Of a stretch of DNA of 64,000 bases, positions 31,784 through 42,638 are shown piece by piece. The stretch comes from an uncultured Leptolyngbyaceae cyanobacterium. GTDB lineage: Bacteria; Cyanobacteriota; Cyanobacteriia; Leptolyngbyales; Leptolyngbyaceae. How positions within the stretch are numbered: position 1 is the first letter of the stretch; each line of letters starts with the position of its first letter. A model generated the notes under the pieces. That model did no database searches. It was not told the origin of the DNA and worked only from the letters and a program-made list of their open reading frames with translations. Location: the NCBI GenBank assembly GCA_938023035.1, contig CALIDI010000034.1, positions 1-64,000 on the forward strand, read 5' to 3'. The translations under genes were made by a program, and so were the position numbers.

Positions 31784-34700
31784 ATGGTGCTAGGACTGCC
31801 CGGCCATTTGGATACTTTGGTGTTGCCTCTCTGTGGGCATTGCTATCTTTGGTCGCCTATCTTGGTCGGGCTGCAAGTCTTCTCCGATGGCCTGATTACT
31901 CTAGCTTGTTTGTTGATGCTACGGGTGCTGTTTGATTTTGTGCAGCATCACCGAGGTATGGCGTCTGTCTGGGTTTTTCAAATATTTGGGGCATTGATTG
32001 CGGCCTACGGGCTAACCCATGCTATGGAAATTTGGACTCTTTGGCACCCAATGGATTGGGGCTTGGGGGGGCTAAAGGCGTTGACGGCGATTCTTTCTTT
32101 AAGCACAGCGGTTGGGCTGGTTTCGGCGATGCCTCGGTTGTCGCTGCTGCCTCGTTGGAGTGAGCAAGCAGCCACCAGGGTGGATGTGGAACCGCAGGGG
32201 CGTGACCTTCAGGTGTTATCGACCCGGCCTGACCCGTATCGCTACCTGCTGGATTCGATTAAGGCGATTGTTTGGGAACTGGATGCACCCGCCTTCAAGT
32301 TTACGTTTGTTAATCGCAAAGCTGAAGTGATTCTGGGTTATCCCGCGGAGCAGTGGCTAACCGAACCTGACTTTTGGCAAAACCACATCCATCCAGAGGA
32401 TCGGGAGTGGGTTGTAGACCTCTGTATCAGTAAGACGCAGGCGTTGCAAAGCCATGAGATGGAATATCGCATGATTGCAGCAGATGGCCGGGTGGCTTGG
32501 TTATGGGATCAGGTGGAGGTGATTGCCGATGGCGATCGCCCGGTGAAGCTACAAGGCATCATGATCGACATTAGCGATCGCAAAGCTGTCGAACGGGCGC
32601 TGGAACAGAGCAACACCCGTTTGCGCAACCTGGCTGCGAATATTCCGGGTGCGGTTTTTCGCTATGTGCTGCGGGCCGATGGTTCAGATGCAGTGCTGTA
32701 TATGAGTCCAGGTTGCGATCAACTCTGGGAAGTGGCCGCCAGTGCAGTCGAAGCAGATGCCACCATTCTCTGGGAGATGGTGCATCCAGATGACCAACCC
32801 GCCATGTATCAGTCAGTATTGGCCTCTGCCCGCACGCTACAGCCCTGGTCATGGGCATGGCGAATTACTACCCCATCGGGTCGGGAAAAATGGCTGGAGG
32901 CCGCTGGTAGACCCGAACGCCAAGAGAATGGCGATGTGATTTGGGATACGGTGATTTTAGATGTCACAACGCGCAAGCAAACCGAAATTGCCCTGGCAGA
33001 GTCGCAGCAGCACTATCAAAACCTGGTGGAAAACTCGCCCGACGTGATTGAGCGCTTTGATTTGCAACTGCGTCGGCTCTACGTTAGCCCAGCCTTTACC
33101 CGCGTTACTGGCATTCCCGCAGAGGCCTGTCTGGGTAAAACCTGTCGGGAGCTAAAGCTAGATGAGACCATCGTTACCACTTGGGAAAATGCTGCTGCTG
33201 CCGTGATCCGCACAGGCCAAAAGCAGGTCATTGAGTTTTCCGCACCGACGCTGCAAGGGGTGCGCTGCTTTGAGATGGTGATCGCCCCTGAATGGGCCAA
33301 GGATCAAACCCTCCAATCCATTCTCTGCATTTCGCGGGATATGACCGAACGCAAGCAAGCCGCGGCCGAATTGCAAGCGAGTGAGGAGCGGTTACGCCTG
33401 GCTCTAGAAGCCGCGAACCAAGGCTTATATGACCTTAACATTCAAACGGGGGAAGCGATTGTTAGCCCTGAATATGCGCGGATGTTGGGCTACGATCCAG
33501 CGACCTTTGAGGAAACCAACGCCCGCTGGATTGAGCGACTCCACCCTAACGACCGCGAACCCGTTGTTGCCACTTATCGTGCCTATATCGCCGGAGCCTT
33601 GCCAGAATACCGGGTTGAGTTTCGCCAACGCACCCAATCGGGCGATTACAAGTGGATTTTGTCCCTGGGCAAGGTTGTCGCCTGGGATGAGGCCGGGCAG
33701 CCCCTACGCATGTTGGGGACTCACACGGATATGACCGAACGCAAGCAAGCCGCGGCTGAATTGCAAGCCAGTGAAGAGCGGTTACGCCTGGCTCTAGAAG
33801 CCGCGAACCAAGGAACGTATGACATTGACTTAAAAACAGGGACAGCGGTGCTCAGCCCAGGATATATTGCAATGTTGGGCTACACTCGAGATGAATTTGA
33901 TGACACCGCTGCCGGCTGGCGCGATCGCCTCCATCCCGACGAACGGGAGGCAGTTTTTCAGACCTTTCTCGATTACACGCAGGGCAAACGGGCCGATTAT
34001 CAAGTCGAGTTTCGTCAACGCACCAAAACGGGCGATTACAAGTGGATTTTATCGTTAGCCAAAATCGTTGCCTGGGATGAAGACGGTCTCCCCCGCCGGA
34101 TGATTGGCACCCATACGGATATCACTGAGCGCAAACAGGCTGAAACCCAACTGCGCGACCTAACCGATCGTCTACGTCTGGCTGTGCAGGCTGCCAAAAT
34201 GGGCATTTGGGATTGGGATATCGGCCGCGATCGCCTCACCTGGGATGAACGGATGTACGAAATCTATGGACTGCAACCCACTAAGCAGCCGACAGTCTAC
34301 CAGACTTGGGAAAAATCGCTCCACCCCGATGATTTGGCTCAGTGTCGAACCGTCTTGCAACAAGCCCTCGCTGGAGAAATCGACTATAACGCGGAGTTTC
34401 GGGTCGTTTGGCCGGATGGCAGCGTTCACTACATCGAAGCCCATGCCATTGTGCAGCGCGACGCCCACGGTCACCCCCTGCGCATGATTGGGGTCAACCT
34501 AGATGTGAGCGATCGCAAGCAAGCCGAAATCGCCCTACGCTTCAGTGAAGCGCGATTGCGCGCCTTTATGGATAACAGCCCCGCTTCAACCTGGGTGACA
34601 GACCCAGCAAATGGGCGCATCAAATATGCCAACCAAACCTATCACCAAACCCTGGCAGTTCCCCAAACGGTTGTTGGCAAGACCCTAGCAGAGCTATTTC

Positions 34701-36826
34701 CCCCTGACATTGCCGCAACCTATCTGCACAATACTCGCCAAGTGGCTGAAACAGGGCAAGTCATCGAAACCATTGAACCCGGCATTCGTTCAGATCAAAG
34801 CATGGGTGACTTCCTGGTTTTGCAATTTCCCCTCCCCCAAGCCAATGGCCGCCTGTGGGTCGGTGGCGTTGCTATTGACATCACCGATCGCAAACGAGCC
34901 GAAGAGGCACAACGCCAGGCCGAAAAACTCCGCCTAGAACTCAACTTGCTAGAACGCATCCTCGACAGTGTGCTGGCCGGCTATTGGGATTGGGATCTGC
35001 CGGGTCATACGATCTACCTGAGTCCTGGGTTAAAGCGCATGTTTGGCTATGAAGATAATGAGCTTACCCATGTGCCAGAGACCTGGCAAAGCTTGGTTCA
35101 CCCTGAAGATTTACCGAAATTGATGCAATGTTTTGACCACCATGTGCAAACTCGAGGAAAGGTGCCTTACTACAACGAGGTGCGCTATCGCCACAAAAAC
35201 GGCTCCACCATTTGGGTCATCTGTGCCGGGCAGGTGATTGAGTGGGATGAAACCGGCCAACCCTTACGAATGGTGGGGTGCCACGTGGATATTACAAAAC
35301 AAAAGCAGACCGAAGCACAACTGCAAACGAGCGAACGCCACCTGAAACAGGCCCAACGCATTGGCAAGCTGGGCAGTTGGGAGTTTGAACTAGCGACCGA
35401 AACAATCACCTGGTCCGATCAGGTATTTCGCTTGTTTCGGCGTGACCCGGCCATGGGTGAACCCAAATCCTTTGATGAACTCCAGCAATTGATTGATCCT
35501 CGCGATCGCGCCTTCCATGCCCAAGCCGTTCAAACCCTGATTGAAACCCATCAACCCTACAATATCGAGTGTCGCATTTGTCGGGCAGATGGCACAATTG
35601 GCTGGATACAGGCCAGGGGGGAAGTGATTTTAGACACAGCCGGGCAGGTGATTAAGCTAACCGGCATCGCCCTTGACATTAACGAACGGAAACAAATCGA
35701 GGCTCAGTTGCAAAGCCTCTCCGATCGCTTAAAACTGGCGCTCCAGGCCGGAGAAATTGGTGTTTGGGAATGGGATTTGAACAGCGACGTGCAGTGGGAT
35801 GAGCGCATCTACGAAATCTATGGCCTACAGCATCTCGGTCGCCCCGCCACCTATCAAGACTGGGCCAAACTGCTCCCTCCCGAAGACCTCAAAAGGGTCG
35901 AGGCAGCTCAGCAAGCAGCGATTCACGACGGGCAAGACTTCAAAGTCGAGTTTCAGATTTGGCGCACCGATGGCGAAGTCCGCTGGAGCAAGGCAGAAGC
36001 GATTGTGCAACGCAATGACAAGGGTGAAGCGATCCGCATGGTGGGGATTACCTTTGACATTACAGAACGCAAGCGCGCAGAAGCGCAAATTTTGCAAACA
36101 ACGGCGCAACTGCAAGCCTCTAACCGAGAGCTAGAAGCCTTTGCCTACTCGGTTTCCCATGATTTGCGGGCACCTTTGCGCGCCATTGACGGGTTTAGTA
36201 AAGCCTTACTCGAAGACTATGGCGATCGCTTAGATGCCGAAGGCAAAGATTACTTTGATCGGATCCGTTACAACGTCCAGCGCATGGGTCTGTTGATTGA
36301 TGACCTGCTGCGGTTGTCACGGGTCTCTCGCTCAGAAATGCGCTACGACACCGTCAACCTGAGTGCCTTGGTGCAAGACCAGATCAAAGAACTACAAGCC
36401 TCAGACCCCAGCCGCCAAGTTGAATTCAGAGTTACTCCAGGGGCGATCGTCTTAGCAGACCCCACCCTGATGCGAATCGTCATCACCAACCTGCTCGACA
36501 ATGCTTGGAAATTTACGAGTCATCACCCCTCTGCTCAGATTGAATTTGGCATCATCAGTTCGGAAGGGCAGCCCGTCTATTTTATTCGCGACGATGGAGC
36601 TGGCTTTGATATGACCTATGCCTCCAAGTTGTTTGGTGTGTTTCAACGCTTACACAGTATGGATGAATTTCCCGGCACTGGGATTGGTTTAGCTACTGTA
36701 CAGCGGGCTATTCTCCGCCACGGGGGCCAGGTTTGGGCAAAAGGGGCCATCGAGCAAGGAGCGACCATTTATTTCACGATTCCCAATTTATCCCCTAGAA
36801 ATCTGCACGTGAATGATGAACCCTAA
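31784..36826 (+). CDS. ethylene-sensor-like, 10-PAS histidine kinase
   Basis: 1680 residues; ATG with AGGAGG 5 nt upstream. The N-terminus (about 18-118) has three membrane helices and aligns without gaps to the ethylene-binding domain of ETR1 and Synechocystis Slr1212: GHCYLW, FSDGLITLA, FGALIAAYGLTHAMEIWTLWHP. Asp25, Ile62 and His69 of ETR1 are kept as Asp35, Ile72 and His79, but Cys65 is Tyr75 and Tyr32 is Cys42. Ten PAS/PAC modules follow (linkers such as DISDRKAVE, DMTERKQAA, DITERKQAE, DVSDRKQAE). The kinase core is phytochrome-like: phospho-His1459 in VSHDLRAPLRAIDGF, then HATPase_c (NLLDNAWKFTS, FIRDDGAGFD, GTGIGLATV). Modules 3 and 4 are near-identical at their linkers. The receiver gene at 37421 is the probable partner. 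Confidence 0.88.
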   Translation: MVLGLPGHLDTLVLPLCGHCYLWSPILVGLQVFSDGLITLACLLMLRVLFDFVQHHRGMASVWVFQIFGALIAAYGLTHAMEIWTLWHPMDWGLGGLKALTAILSLSTAVGLVSAMPRLSLLPRWSEQAATRVDVEPQGRDLQVLSTRPDPYRYLLDSIKAIVWELDAPAFKFTFVNRKAEVILGYPAEQWLTEPDFWQNHIHPEDREWVVDLCISKTQALQSHEMEYRMIAADGRVAWLWDQVEVIADGDRPVKLQGIMIDISDRKAVERALEQSNTRLRNLAANIPGAVFRYVLRADGSDAVLYMSPGCDQLWEVAASAVEADATILWEMVHPDDQPAMYQSVLASARTLQPWSWAWRITTPSGREKWLEAAGRPERQENGDVIWDTVILDVTTRKQTEIALAESQQHYQNLVENSPDVIERFDLQLRRLYVSPAFTRVTGIPAEACLGKTCRELKLDETIVTTWENAAAAVIRTGQKQVIEFSAPTLQGVRCFEMVIAPEWAKDQTLQSILCISRDMTERKQAAAELQASEERLRLALEAANQGLYDLNIQTGEAIVSPEYARMLGYDPATFEETNARWIERLHPNDREPVVATYRAYIAGALPEYRVEFRQRTQSGDYKWILSLGKVVAWDEAGQPLRMLGTHTDMTERKQAAAELQASEERLRLALEAANQGTYDIDLKTGTAVLSPGYIAMLGYTRDEFDDTAAGWRDRLHPDEREAVFQTFLDYTQGKRADYQVEFRQRTKTGDYKWILSLAKIVAWDEDGLPRRMIGTHTDITERKQAETQLRDLTDRLRLAVQAAKMGIWDWDIGRDRLTWDERMYEIYGLQPTKQPTVYQTWEKSLHPDDLAQCRTVLQQALAGEIDYNAEFRVVWPDGSVHYIEAHAIVQRDAHGHPLRMIGVNLDVSDRKQAEIALRFSEARLRAFMDNSPASTWVTDPANGRIKYANQTYHQTLAVPQTVVGKTLAELFPPDIAATYLHNTRQVAETGQVIETIEPGIRSDQSMGDFLVLQFPLPQANGRLWVGGVAIDITDRKRAEEAQRQAEKLRLELNLLERILDSVLAGYWDWDLPGHTIYLSPGLKRMFGYEDNELTHVPETWQSLVHPEDLPKLMQCFDHHVQTRGKVPYYNEVRYRHKNGSTIWVICAGQVIEWDETGQPLRMVGCHVDITKQKQTEAQLQTSERHLKQAQRIGKLGSWEFELATETITWSDQVFRLFRRDPAMGEPKSFDELQQLIDPRDRAFHAQAVQTLIETHQPYNIECRICRADGTIGWIQARGEVILDTAGQVIKLTGIALDINERKQIEAQLQSLSDRLKLALQAGEIGVWEWDLNSDVQWDERIYEIYGLQHLGRPATYQDWAKLLPPEDLKRVEAAQQAAIHDGQDFKVEFQIWRTDGEVRWSKAEAIVQRNDKGEAIRMVGITFDITERKRAEAQILQTTAQLQASNRELEAFAYSVSHDLRAPLRAIDGFSKALLEDYGDRLDAEGKDYFDRIRYNVQRMGLLIDDLLRLSRVSRSEMRYDTVNLSALVQDQIKELQASDPSRQVEFRVTPGAIVLADPTLMRIVITNLLDNAWKFTSHHPSAQIEFGIISSEGQPVYFIRDDGAGFDMTYASKLFGVFQRLHSMDEFPGTGIGLATVQRAILRHGGQVWAKGAIEQGATIYFTIPNLSPRNLHVNDEP

Positions 36827-37420: not shown

Positions 37421-37840
37421 ATGACAACTTTACGTTCAATCCTTTTGGTTGAGGATAACCCTGATGATGAACGCCTGACCCTGCGGGCGCTGCGGCGCGG
37501 CAATATTGTCAATGAGATTCGGGTAACCCGCGATGGTGAAGAAGCCCTCAATGTGCTTTTTAGTTTAGAATCGTTGCCTTGTGTAGTGCTGCTCGATCTC
37601 AAACTGCCTAAGGTTGATGGTTTAGAGGTTTTGCAACAAATTCGGGCAAACACTCGCACCCGCCTCTTACCCGTCGTGATTTTGACCTCTTCTAGTGAAG
37701 AGCGCGATATTATCGAAAGCTACAATCTGGGAGCAAATAGTTATGTGCGTAAGCCCGTCGAGATTGACCCGTTTGCCGAGGCGGTGCGCCAATTGGGACT
37801 ATATTGGGCACTTATTAATGAGCCACTCCCTGGAGGCTAA
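37421..37840 (+). CDS. Rcp1-like response regulator
   Basis: 139 residues, a single receiver domain with no output domain. Acidic pocket EDNPDDE (Glu11-Asp12), phospho-acceptor Asp59 in [13 protein letters not shown], Thr/Ser in [12 protein letters not shown] and Lys110 in [10 protein letters not shown]. The ending [20 protein letters not shown] is the signature of the Rcp1 group, partners of cyanobacterial phytochrome kinases such as Cph1. It lies between two kinases of the same strand and is separated by 6 nt from the next gene, so it is co-transcribed with that one. Confidence 0.92.
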
Positions 37841-37846
37841 TAACGC

Positions 37847-40522
37847 ATGAGTGACTCCCTTGCGATTTTAATGATTGAAGATTCAGAAGATGATGCGCTT
37901 CTGATTCAGCGAGAGTTGAAGCGTGGCGGTTTTAGCCTGACGTGGGAACGGGTGCAAACAGCCGCAGAATTGCGATCAGCCCTAGCCAGTTGCACTTGGG
38001 ATGTCATCATTTCAGACTATCGCTTGCCAAACTTTGATGCATCGGTAGCCCTGGAAATCGTTAAGCAGAGTCAAACCGATTTGCCCTTTATTATTGTGTC
38101 GGGCACGATTGGCGAAGAGTTGGCGGTAGCCATGATGAAGGCGGGTGCCCATGATTATCTGATGAAAGATAATTTGACTCGCTTACCTGAGGCGGTACGG
38201 CGGGAGGTGCGGGAAGCAAAAATGCGGGCAGAACGCAAACGCGCCGCGATCGCTCTGGAAGTTGCCGAAAACCGCCTGCAACTGGCCGTGGAAGGGGCAG
38301 GCATTGGATTATGGGATTGGCAGGTGCAAACGGGGAGCCTGACTTTAAATACTTGCTGGGCTGAAATTGTAGGCTACGCTCTGGAGGCGCTAGAACCCAT
38401 TACCATCGACACCTGGCAAAAATTGATCCATCCAGAAGATTTACCCATCGCGTGGTCAGAAATCGAGCGCCATTTTCGGCGAGAAATCCCTCACTATAAG
38501 CTTGAGCTGCGCCTGCGGCATGCGTCTGGTCACTGGGTATGGGTTTTAGACCAGGGCCGAGTGGTGGAGTGGGATGAGGCTGGGCAACCCCTCCGGATGA
38601 CGGGCATGATCACAGATATTTCGGATCTCAAGAGTGCTGAAATTCGTCTCCAACAGACTGCTGAGCGCGAGCAACTGGTGCGCCTGGTAACCGAGCGGAT
38701 TCGCCAATCCCTTGATCTCGATGAAATTTTGGCTCGAACTGTGAGCGAAGTTCACCAGGTTTTGCAGACAGATCGCGTGATTCTGTTTCGGCTCCGCTCA
38801 GACGGCCAGGGTTATGGTTATGTCGCTCAGGAGTCAGTGGGGGAAGGCTGGCAAACCCTGCTCGGGCAAGATATTTATGAACCCTGCTTTCATGCCAACT
38901 ACGTGGATAAATATGCCCAAGGGCGTGTTTGGGCGATCGCCGATATTGATGATGGCAGCATTCAACCCTGCCATGCGGAGTTTCTTAGACAGTTTCAGGT
39001 TCGTGCCAACTTGATTGTGCCGATCACCTGCCCGATGGGCCTGTGGGGGCTATTGATTGCTCACCATTGCAGCCAGCCCCGCCAATGGAGTGAAGCAGAA
39101 ATCCACCTATTGCAACAACTAGCAGGCCAAGCGACGATCGCGATTCAGCAAGCGAATCTCTATCGCCAGGTTCAGTTAGAGTTAACTGAACGGCAACGGG
39201 CAGAAACCGCCCTCCAACAACTGAACCAGCGCCTAGAAGAACGCGTCCAAGAACGCACTCAGGAATTACAACAGCAGGCTGAGCAAGAGCGCCTGCTCCG
39301 ACTCATCATTCAAAATATTCATCGCTCCCTCGATCTAGATGCCATTTTTGCAACCGTGCTAAACGAGACACGACAAACACTCCAGGCAGACCGGGTTAGC
39401 ATCTACCAGTTCGCCTCTGACTGGAGTGGTTATTTTGTTGCAGAGTCGGTGGGCGAGGGCTGGCAGCCCCTTGTCGGCGATGGTATCAAAACCGCTTGGG
39501 AAGATACCTATTTACAAGAAAACCAAGGCGGGCAGTACTGTCGGAACGAACCCTCGGCAGTTGATGACATTTATGCCACTGAACATAGCCCCTGCCATCT
39601 CGACATATTGGAACAATTTCAGATTAGAGCCTACGCGATCGCTCCTATTTTTCTAGATGGACAACTCTGGGGCCTGCTATCGGCTTACCAACATGCTGGC
39701 CCGCGTCAGTGGCAACCCTGGGAAATTAGCTTGTTGCAGCAAATTGCCCTGCAAACCGCGATCGCCCTGCGCCAATCGACCTTGTATCAGGCCGCACAAG
39801 CACAGGTGAAAGCCCTGGAGCAGCTCGGTCAGCTTAAGGACGATTTTTTGAGCACGGTCTCCCACGAATTGCGATCGCCCCTCACCAACATCAAAATGGC
39901 AATTCAAATGGTAGAACTGCGGCTGCAACAACAAGCAATCCAGGATGAGCGACTAACGCAATATCTCCAGATCCTGGAAGAAGGCTGCAATCAGGAACTG
40001 ACCCTAATTAATGATCTGTTAGATTTACAACGATTAGAGGGTGGAGTTCAGACGCTGGACTTAGAAACCATTGACCTCAACCATTGGCTGTTATCCATCT
40101 CAGAACTTTTTGAAGTCCGTGCCCGAGAACAGCAACAACAACTCCATATCCAGTTGCCCCCAAACTTGCCGTCGATCACGACCGACGCCGCCGCGCTCAA
40201 ACGCATCGTGACAGAGCTATTACACAACGCTTGTAAATATACGCCACCTCAAGAGCAAATTACCCTGGCCGCTCAGGCCACCGATAGTCAAGTGCAACTT
40301 CAGGTATCTAACTCTGGCGTCGAAATTCCCCCAGAAGAGTTGCCGCGCATCTTTGAAAAATTCTATCGGATTGCCAGAATCGACCGCTGGAAGCAGGGCG
40401 GCACCGGCTTGGGACTAGCCCTGGTAAAACGGCTGGTTGAGCATCTACAGGGAACCATCCGAGTAGAAAGCCGCAACGCATTGACCTGCTTTACCGTTCA
40501 ACTTCCCTTCAAGCTCCATTGA
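37847..40522 (+). CDS. receiver-PAS-GAF-GAF histidine kinase, cyanobacteriochrome-like
   Basis: 891 residues, soluble. Receiver (1-125, Asp57, Lys107); PAS/PAC (about 138-265); GAF1 (about 280-435); coiled coil (445-485); GAF2 (about 488-640); HisKA with His673 in VSHELRSPLTNI; HATPase_c with Asn794 (LLHNACKYTP) and GGTGLGLALV. GAF1 has the cyanobacteriochrome pattern AQESVGEGW, then EPCF (Cys347, a variant of the DXCF motif), GRVWAIADI, and the canonical chromophore pair Cys375-His376 in PCHAEFLRQFQVRANLIVPI. GAF2 has VAESVGEGW, AVDDIY and Cys583-His584 in SPCHLDILEQFQIRA, but no DXCF. Both may bind a bilin covalently, so it is probably a light-sensing kinase. It starts 6 nt after the receiver gene. 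Confidence 0.87.
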   Translation: MSDSLAILMIEDSEDDALLIQRELKRGGFSLTWERVQTAAELRSALASCTWDVIISDYRLPNFDASVALEIVKQSQTDLPFIIVSGTIGEELAVAMMKAGAHDYLMKDNLTRLPEAVRREVREAKMRAERKRAAIALEVAENRLQLAVEGAGIGLWDWQVQTGSLTLNTCWAEIVGYALEALEPITIDTWQKLIHPEDLPIAWSEIERHFRREIPHYKLELRLRHASGHWVWVLDQGRVVEWDEAGQPLRMTGMITDISDLKSAEIRLQQTAEREQLVRLVTERIRQSLDLDEILARTVSEVHQVLQTDRVILFRLRSDGQGYGYVAQESVGEGWQTLLGQDIYEPCFHANYVDKYAQGRVWAIADIDDGSIQPCHAEFLRQFQVRANLIVPITCPMGLWGLLIAHHCSQPRQWSEAEIHLLQQLAGQATIAIQQANLYRQVQLELTERQRAETALQQLNQRLEERVQERTQELQQQAEQERLLRLIIQNIHRSLDLDAIFATVLNETRQTLQADRVSIYQFASDWSGYFVAESVGEGWQPLVGDGIKTAWEDTYLQENQGGQYCRNEPSAVDDIYATEHSPCHLDILEQFQIRAYAIAPIFLDGQLWGLLSAYQHAGPRQWQPWEISLLQQIALQTAIALRQSTLYQAAQAQVKALEQLGQLKDDFLSTVSHELRSPLTNIKMAIQMVELRLQQQAIQDERLTQYLQILEEGCNQELTLINDLLDLQRLEGGVQTLDLETIDLNHWLLSISELFEVRAREQQQQLHIQLPPNLPSITTDAAALKRIVTELLHNACKYTPPQEQITLAAQATDSQVQLQVSNSGVEIPPEELPRIFEKFYRIARIDRWKQGGTGLGLALVKRLVEHLQGTIRVESRNALTCFTVQLPFKLH

Positions 40523-40855
40523 GCAGTCGTTGCTGCACCGTTGCGCGAATGGATCGATCAAAATGCTTTACCAAAAGTGAATAAGGTGCTCATACGCAAC
40601 CAGTTTACCGAGATGCCTGCATCCGGCCACTAGTTTGATCGCGATCGCCCAATTGCTGAGTCTGAGGTTAAGCAGGTACGCGGCGCTGCTCCCTGCCAGA
40701 AGTTCCACCCCCGCACCCTATCCTCAATCAGGGGGCCATCGCGTCTATCGTTTATCTATCCACAGGCGCTGGCAATGTCAGAAAACTTCCGAAAAACAAC
40801 AGACTGGTTTTCAACCATGCTCAGAAAGTGTTAGCATTTACTATGCTTAAGATGG
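40523..40855. repeat. intergenic stretch with dispersed repeat (family with 54515-54610)
   Basis: No gene. The part at about 40640-40750 (CCCAATTGCTGAGTC, GCGGCGCTGC, ATCCTCAATCAGG) resembles 54515-54610 (CCCTATTGCTGAGTC, GCAGCGCCGCCAGCCAGAGG, CTTCAATCAGG). The match is patchy but keeps order and spacing. Confidence 0.45.
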
Positions 40856-40926
<71 letters not shown>

Positions 40927-41409
40927 TTCTAGTTCCCGCGAAAAAATAGCTTAAAATCCTGGCTTAGCCTTAACCTCAGTGCTTTACCACTCAGTGCTCC
41001 ACCACAAAGATACAGAGGGCACCAAGATCCGGCTCTGTGTTCTCTATACCTCTGGGGTCAAGTTTTAGGTGACCGAACTCTTATCTCTAAGCAATCACCA
41101 GATTCTAAGCAAGTTTTAAGAAAGATTAATCAAGCAAAAAATTCAGAAAACTAATGAACGCTTAAAGCAACAGGCGTCAAAATGTCAGTGCTTGTTATTG
41201 CCAAAAGTTTATTGGCAGGATTCCTTACCTCCAAAGCCTGAATCGAGTCGATTGGATTCATTTCAGCAAAAAATCGCTTGGTGGGGGGTAAGTCCTGCGA
41301 GTGTTGAAAAAGCAGAAAAAGAAGCTCGTAAGGTAGGGGGCAAGTGCTCCCACTCGTCCCCAAAATTGACTGAACCGTGGGGGCGGCTTAAACTCGGTAC
41401 AACTCTCTT
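40927..41409. other. AT-richer stretch with a possible gene remnant
   Basis: Near 40980-41060 is a CACCACAAAGATACAGAGGGCACC-type degenerate repeat. From about 41070 two overlapping plus frames look protein-like: one gives SKQVLRKINQAKNSEN then stops near 41155, the other continues ERLKQQASKCQCLL and QQKIAWWGVSPASVEKAEKEARK up to a stop at 41411-41413. Together they could be a frameshifted relic of a gene whose start is gone. I do not recognise the family. Confidence 0.3.
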
Positions 41410-42591
41410 CTAGCCCTTGATACAAACGACCTGCTTGAGGGTGGCTACCACTTCTACCAGATCGACCTGGTTGGCCATGACCTGATCAATCGGCTTGTAA
41501 GCCGCAGGAATTTCATCCAACACTCCCTTATCTTTACGGCACTCTACGCCTTCTGTCTGTTGGATTAAATCATCCAGGTTAAAGCGCCGCTTGGCCTGAT
41601 TCCGCGACATGGCTCGCCCTGCCCCATGGGAGCAGGAGCAATAGCTTTCGTGATTGCCTTTACCCCTGACAATAAAAGATTTCGCCCCCATTGAGCCGGG
41701 AATAATGCCATAGTCGTTTTCCTGGGCACGCACGGCCCCCTTTCGGGTGACGTAGACCTGCTCCCCGTAATGAACTTCTCGTTCAGCATAGTTGTGGTGG
41801 CAATTGACGGCTCGGAGGGGTTTGGTTGGGTTTCCCCCAGCCAAATGGGTTTCAACCACTTTTTTCAGCCGTGCCATCATCACTTCCCGGTTGAGCCGGG
41901 CGTACTCCTGCCCCCATTGCAAATCATGCCAGTAGGCATCAAATTCGGGGGTTTGGGTAACAAAGTAGGCCAGGTCAGGATCGGGTAGGGATTCGCCCGC
42001 TAATTTGGCCAGGTGTTTGGCCGTGTTGATATGGCACTGGGCTAGCTTGTTGCCAATATTCCGAGAGCCAGAATGCAGCATTAGCCAGACCTGATCAGTG
42101 GTATCTAGACAAACTTCGATGAAGTGGTTACCGCCCCCTAGAGAACCCATCTGGCGCAGAGCCTTTCTTTCTAGATCCTGCACCCCTCTATGCAGATGTT
42201 TGAAAGCCTGCCACCCTTGCCAATTACGCACGGAGTTTTCGACCGTTTTGTTTTCGCTAAAACCGACGGGAATGACCGCTTCAATATCCCGGCGAATGTG
42301 CTTGAGTTTGCCTTCAAGCTGAGTCGCGTTGAAGGGGGTTTGAATCGCGCACATCCCGCAGCCGATATCAACCCCCACAGCAGCCGGCATGATGGCATCT
42401 TTGGTAGCAATCACTGAACCCACTAGTACCCCTTTCCCTAGATGCACATCGGGCATCAGCGCAATGTGCTTAAAGACAAAGGGCAGGGATGCCATGTTTT
42501 TTGCCATTTGTGTTTCGGTGGCACCGAGGTCGTGGTTTGCCCAGGACAATACTGGTGCCGTTGCTGTGAGTTGAAGGGGAGTGTAGGGCAT
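41410..42591 (-). CDS. rtcB: RNA-splicing ligase RtcB
   Basis: 393 residues from ATG 42591 (MPYTPLQLTATAPVLSW), chosen because GGAGG sits 8 nt upstream; Met codons further upstream are in frame. RtcB joins RNA 2',3'-cyclic phosphate and 5'-OH ends using Mn2+ and GTP. Seen: DVHLGKGVLVGSVIA, GVDIGCGM (metal Cys), GSLGGGNHFIEV, LMLHSGSRNIG, VNCHHNYAEREVH, GSMGAKSFIVRGKGN, and the guanylylated His in CSHGAGRAMSR. It is used in tRNA splicing or RNA repair; in bacteria usually repair. No archease or RtcA gene is adjacent. A palindrome lies about 50 nt upstream of the start. Confidence 0.95.
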   Translation of the reverse strand: MPYTPLQLTATAPVLSWANHDLGATETQMAKNMASLPFVFKHIALMPDVHLGKGVLVGSVIATKDAIMPAAVGVDIGCGMCAIQTPFNATQLEGKLKHIRRDIEAVIPVGFSENKTVENSVRNWQGWQAFKHLHRGVQDLERKALRQMGSLGGGNHFIEVCLDTTDQVWLMLHSGSRNIGNKLAQCHINTAKHLAKLAGESLPDPDLAYFVTQTPEFDAYWHDLQWGQEYARLNREVMMARLKKVVETHLAGGNPTKPLRAVNCHHNYAEREVHYGEQVYVTRKGAVRAQENDYGIIPGSMGAKSFIVRGKGNHESYCSCSHGAGRAMSRNQAKRRFNLDDLIQQTEGVECRKDKGVLDEIPAAYKPIDQVMANQVDLVEVVATLKQVVCIKG

Positions 42592-42638
42592 CGTTGTAAC
42601 CTCCATGGCTGTGAGACCTGGTAGATCTCGCATACCTC

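Follow-up and report, generated by a model that had tools for sequence, protein, structure and literature searches.

The gene at 37847..40522 (forward strand) probably encodes a cyanobacterial sensor histidine kinase that pairs a blue/green-type GAF1 with a red/green-type GAF2. It lies in a window of 64,000 nucleotides, the whole stretch of DNA that was analysed. On the strength of its sequence, GAF1 is likely a working dual-Cys domain of the blue/green type with an altered carboxylate, joined to a red/green GAF2 in a conserved three-gene two-component module. The protein belongs to a well-known photoreceptor family, of which it is a mild variant, and is no categorically new photoreceptor. GAF1 counts as a mild variant because its replacement of Asp by Glu is conservative, and although uncommon (about 4%), has arisen many times. 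The motifs, the lineages, the synteny, the presence of genes of the heme oxygenase and bilin reductase families and the recurrence of Glu were computed directly. Beyond these, we infer bilin attachment, colours, phycoviolobilin (PVB) formation, the effect of Glu345 and the phosphotransfer partners.

The open reading frame and Pfam give a product of 891 residues, arranged as REC-PAS-GAF1-GAF2-HisKA-HATPase_c, with all features on the forward strand. The N-terminal receiver (REC) spans residues 7-117 (37865..38197; Pfam Response_reg, 5e-12), and a PAS_3 domain spans residues 167-254 (38345..38608; Pfam and orthologue alignment). The kinase output module, found by Pfam, occupies residues 664-889 (39836..40513) and consists of HisKA (664-733) and HATPase_c (780-889).

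Placement of the two GAF domains

GAF1 covers residues of about 290-435 (38714..39151). Pfam, PDB matches, trees and a fold search all identify it as a dual-Cys, DXCF-type cyanobacteriochrome (CBCR) GAF. The original prediction had read an EPCF motif with Cys347 here, next to a canonical Cys375-His376, and these residues and numbers hold: E345-P346-C347-F348 (38879..38890; pattern scan and alignment) is an ExCF form of the DXCF motif with Cys347 as the second cysteine, and Cys375-His376 (38969..38974; alignment) is the predicted canonical bilin-binding site. In the reference alignment, Glu345 is in register with Asp492 of TePixJ and also with the Asp that red/green CBCRs have in their WXDXXL motif.

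The nearest solved sequence to GAF1 is PPHK (6oap, E=3e-42). RcaE is also among the best matches, and TePixJ (3vv4) matches at E=1.5e-31. Trees were made with FastTree and with IQ-TREE in quick mode, on an alignment without the Glu column. In these, GAF1 falls inside the CBCRs, within a clade of dual-Cys GAFs with 99-100 support that holds nine DxC rows, the window sequence and L074. An AlphaFold model of GAF1, of moderate confidence (mean pLDDT 74, pTM 0.67), has CBCRs as its top PDB fold matches, including the blue form of TePixJ (4glq). GAF1 has the cysteines of the DXCF type (C347-F348 and the canonical C375-H376) and its placement among dual-Cys GAFs, but not the Asp that comes first in the motif, where it has Glu345 and its orthologues Asp. 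It is 66-75% identical to those orthologues, with both Cys, the His and the surrounding motif intact, and carries a two-residue insertion near residue 320.

GAF2 covers residues of about 496-641 (39332..39769), and is assigned to the XRG (red/green-type) CBCRs by Pfam, PDB matches and trees. It contains WEDTYL at residues 551-556 (39497..39514), an instance of the WXDXXL motif that defines this group (PMC11284453). It lacks the DXCF Cys, and alignment predicts a canonical bilin-binding site at Cys583-His584 (39593..39598). The best match is AnPixJg2 (E=2e-55), with NpR6012g4 and Slr1393g3 matching too. FastTree and IQ-TREE unite GAF2 with these three characterised red/green GAFs in a set with a support of 95.

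It had been claimed that GAF2 has only the canonical Cys583-His584. This is right for the known positions, but there is an extra cysteine, Cys565 (QYCR, 39539-39541). The claim survives in its narrower form because Cys565 corresponds to no known second-Cys site. Most sampled red/green-type relatives have Arg at this position.

Phylogenetic placement had been proposed as a check, and it puts both domains inside the CBCRs, GAF1 with the dual-Cys DXCF types and GAF2 with the XRG red/green types. Since the two GAFs belong to different CBCR lineages, the predicted difference in the colours they sense is well supported, as far as sequence goes.

Gene neighbourhood and bilin supply

Over the shared region, the sensor is 71-76% identical to its six nearest orthologues. 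The REC domain is 70-81% identical in orthologues. A search of genome contigs yielded a single further orthologue, L059. The PAS domain (38345-38608) is absent from the six closest orthologues, and has been gained or lost within the family. Three orthologues (L031, L032 and L033) have DPCL for DPCF in GAF1, and two of these three also have Cys-Tyr for Cys-His. The motif thus drifts in this small family, and the photocycle may not be uniform.

Upstream of the sensor, on the same strand, sit a stand-alone response regulator (37421..37840; Pfam) and a multi-PAS histidine kinase with an ETR1-like N-terminus (31784..36826; Pfam). The order of the three genes is kept in all five orthologous loci examined, where the sensor is 71-75% identical, the regulator 79-89% and the C-terminus of the kinase 74-81%. 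The three probably form one signalling module.

The N-terminus of the multi-PAS kinase has a Tyr (AAYGLTHAM). At the same position, Cys is found in four of the five syntenic orthologues (CGxTH or CGLSH) and Ser in the fifth. We take this site to be the copper- and ethylene-binding Cys65 of ETR1, in which case the kinase in the window may be unable to bind ethylene.

Heme oxygenase and the bilin reductase (PcyA-type) family have one match each in the genome, the latter identified to family level, which makes synthesis of phycocyanobilin (PCB) probable. A tRNA-Cys (GCA) lies a short way beyond the sensor gene on its downstream side, at 40855-40927 (forward strand). At 41410-42633 (reverse strand) follows an RtcB-family gene. 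Its best NCBIfam hit is an intein-containing RtcB model, below cut-off, and the best stretch (311-626) covers only the second half of that model.

Glutamate in the second-cysteine motif

ExCF and DxCF patterns of the same spacing were scanned for in 390 genomes of the class. ExCF gave 39 matches in 31 genomes, of which 37 are verified CBCR GAFs, the window's included; the matches in G330 and G369 do not translate as CBCR GAFs. DxCF gave about 847 matches, spread over 289 genomes. This total was copied from the output table and counts pattern matches, where ExCF was counted by translation. A reversed-pattern control gave zero throughout. With 37 set against about 847, Glu makes up about 4% of the motif and Asp about 96%. 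The scan also rules out EPCF as a unique feature. To call the exchange of D for E unusual, as had been done, is fair at this frequency, yet the change is recurrent and conservative and not singular. No motif by the name EXCF or EPCF was found in the open-licence papers searched, which is weak evidence of novelty.

The acid has switched between Asp and Glu about 13 times on the tree (at least 13 changes, of which 7-8 are required by branches with good support). All six nearest orthologues have Asp (three DPCF, three DPCL), so the Glu of the window protein is recent. EPCF is also found in a relative of GAF1 from G284 (L074/L159), part of a receptor with a different architecture. As this relative is nested among Asp rows, it gained its Glu independently. 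The window genome's other dual-Cys GAFs, those seen, keep Asp. Where the sampled GAFs combine a second Cys in CF or CL context with a canonical Cys-His or Cys-Tyr, the acidic position holds Asp or Glu and never a neutral residue, which suggests that a carboxylate is needed.

Within such a frame, PCB would most likely be bound at Cys375 of GAF1 and probably be isomerised to PVB, although a firm prediction of PVB formation is not possible from sequence. Cys347 would form a light-labile second bond to C10 of the bilin, so that the dark state would absorb blue light and the photoproduct be of the green/teal type. In TePixJ, the bilin swings to Asp492 and Gln526 after isomerisation (PMC6955287). 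In GAF1, Glu345 would replace the usual Asp as the acid that pairs with the bilin in the photoproduct, and its extra methylene may make photoconversion less efficient or alter dark reversion. GAF2 would carry PCB on Cys583 and run a red/green cycle. Both signals would converge on HisKA/HATPase, and from there pass to the protein's own REC at the N-terminus, to the neighbouring stand-alone response regulator, or to both.

The simplest reading of Glu345 is that the charge is retained, perhaps at some loss of efficiency. Asp-to-Glu mutants of two insert-Cys CBCRs still bind bilin and photoconvert, if less efficiently, and the exchange is milder there than Asp-to-Ala at the same site; the analogy is limited in that these are insert-Cys and not DXCF CBCRs, and in that photoconversion was reduced (PMC5240096).

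It may well be that Glu345 has no functional consequence at all and arrived by drift in an otherwise ordinary blue/green-type GAF1, a reading given somewhat under an even chance. The exchange takes a single third-position base change, the many switches on the tree point the same way, and so does the Asp of the nearest orthologues. The dominance of Asp among motif matches does argue that selection usually favours it. A tentative alternative, and a less probable one, is that Glu345 retunes GAF1. The longer acid would then shift the pocket, with a poor second bond or a destabilised photoproduct, and the domain would be something other than plain blue/green, such as a power sensor that reverts fast or a domain with a red/orange dark state. 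The lowered photoconversion of the insert-Cys mutants (PMC5240096) fits this, and elsewhere whole clades retain Glu, which may be selected there. Against it, acid and Cys are both retained, and a column-by-column scan of independent pairs for a compensating residue found nothing reliable, with no column shifting consistently with Glu, in only eight supported pairs.

That GAF1 has lost light sensing, and is either in decay or has a structural role, is very unlikely. The deviating motif and the two-residue insertion could be taken that way, but the bilin-binding residues are intact and identity to the orthologues is high. Least probable of all is that the codon stands for Asp and was misread in sequencing or assembly. 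One base does decide between GAA and GAC or GAT, and the genome is in 62 contigs; natural ExCF CBCR GAFs in many other genomes however make the residue plausible.

An acid directly precedes Glu in 27 of 38 ExCF rows, compared with 5 of 79 rows with Asp. The independent events behind this association are few, and it is not significant when shared ancestry is considered. In the window GAF1 the preceding residue is Tyr, so Glu345 has no neighbouring acid. A more speculative and rather improbable idea is that ExCF CBCRs, which evolved again and again from DXCF ancestors, constitute a class of their own in function, the longer carboxylate making the photoproduct differ in stability or in colour. 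If so, the window protein, with a Glu that lacks an acidic neighbour, would be a clean natural test.

CBCR motifs serve for colour prediction from sequence. Of the dual-Cys GAFs with this spacing pattern, about 4% would escape a search that insists on DXCF. The nearest orthologues, all with Asp and close to the window protein in GAF1, offer a natural comparison for the role of the motif carboxylate.

Comparison with known systems

GAF1 resembles the DXCF dual-Cys CBCRs TePixJ and Tlr0924 in the position of its second Cys, which comes two residues behind the acid and just before a Phe, and in its canonical Cys-His, GAF fold and clade. It differs from them in having Glu345 for Asp and in its two-residue insertion. 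The dual sensor histidine kinase PPHK (6oap) has DQYF and no second Cys, and so a different motif and subgroup. The insert-Cys CBCRs Mbr3854g4 and Mbl3738g2 share the acidic position, with Asp-to-Glu mutants engineered there, but their second Cys is in an insertion loop, outside the motif (PMC5240096). GAF2 is like the XRG CBCRs AnPixJg2, NpR6012g4 and Slr1393g3 in its WXDXXL motif, its canonical Cys-His, its lack of a DXCF Cys and its grouping in the trees; it departs from its XRG relatives in Gln563 and Cys565 (QYC), a stretch that reads RYR in most close orthologues.
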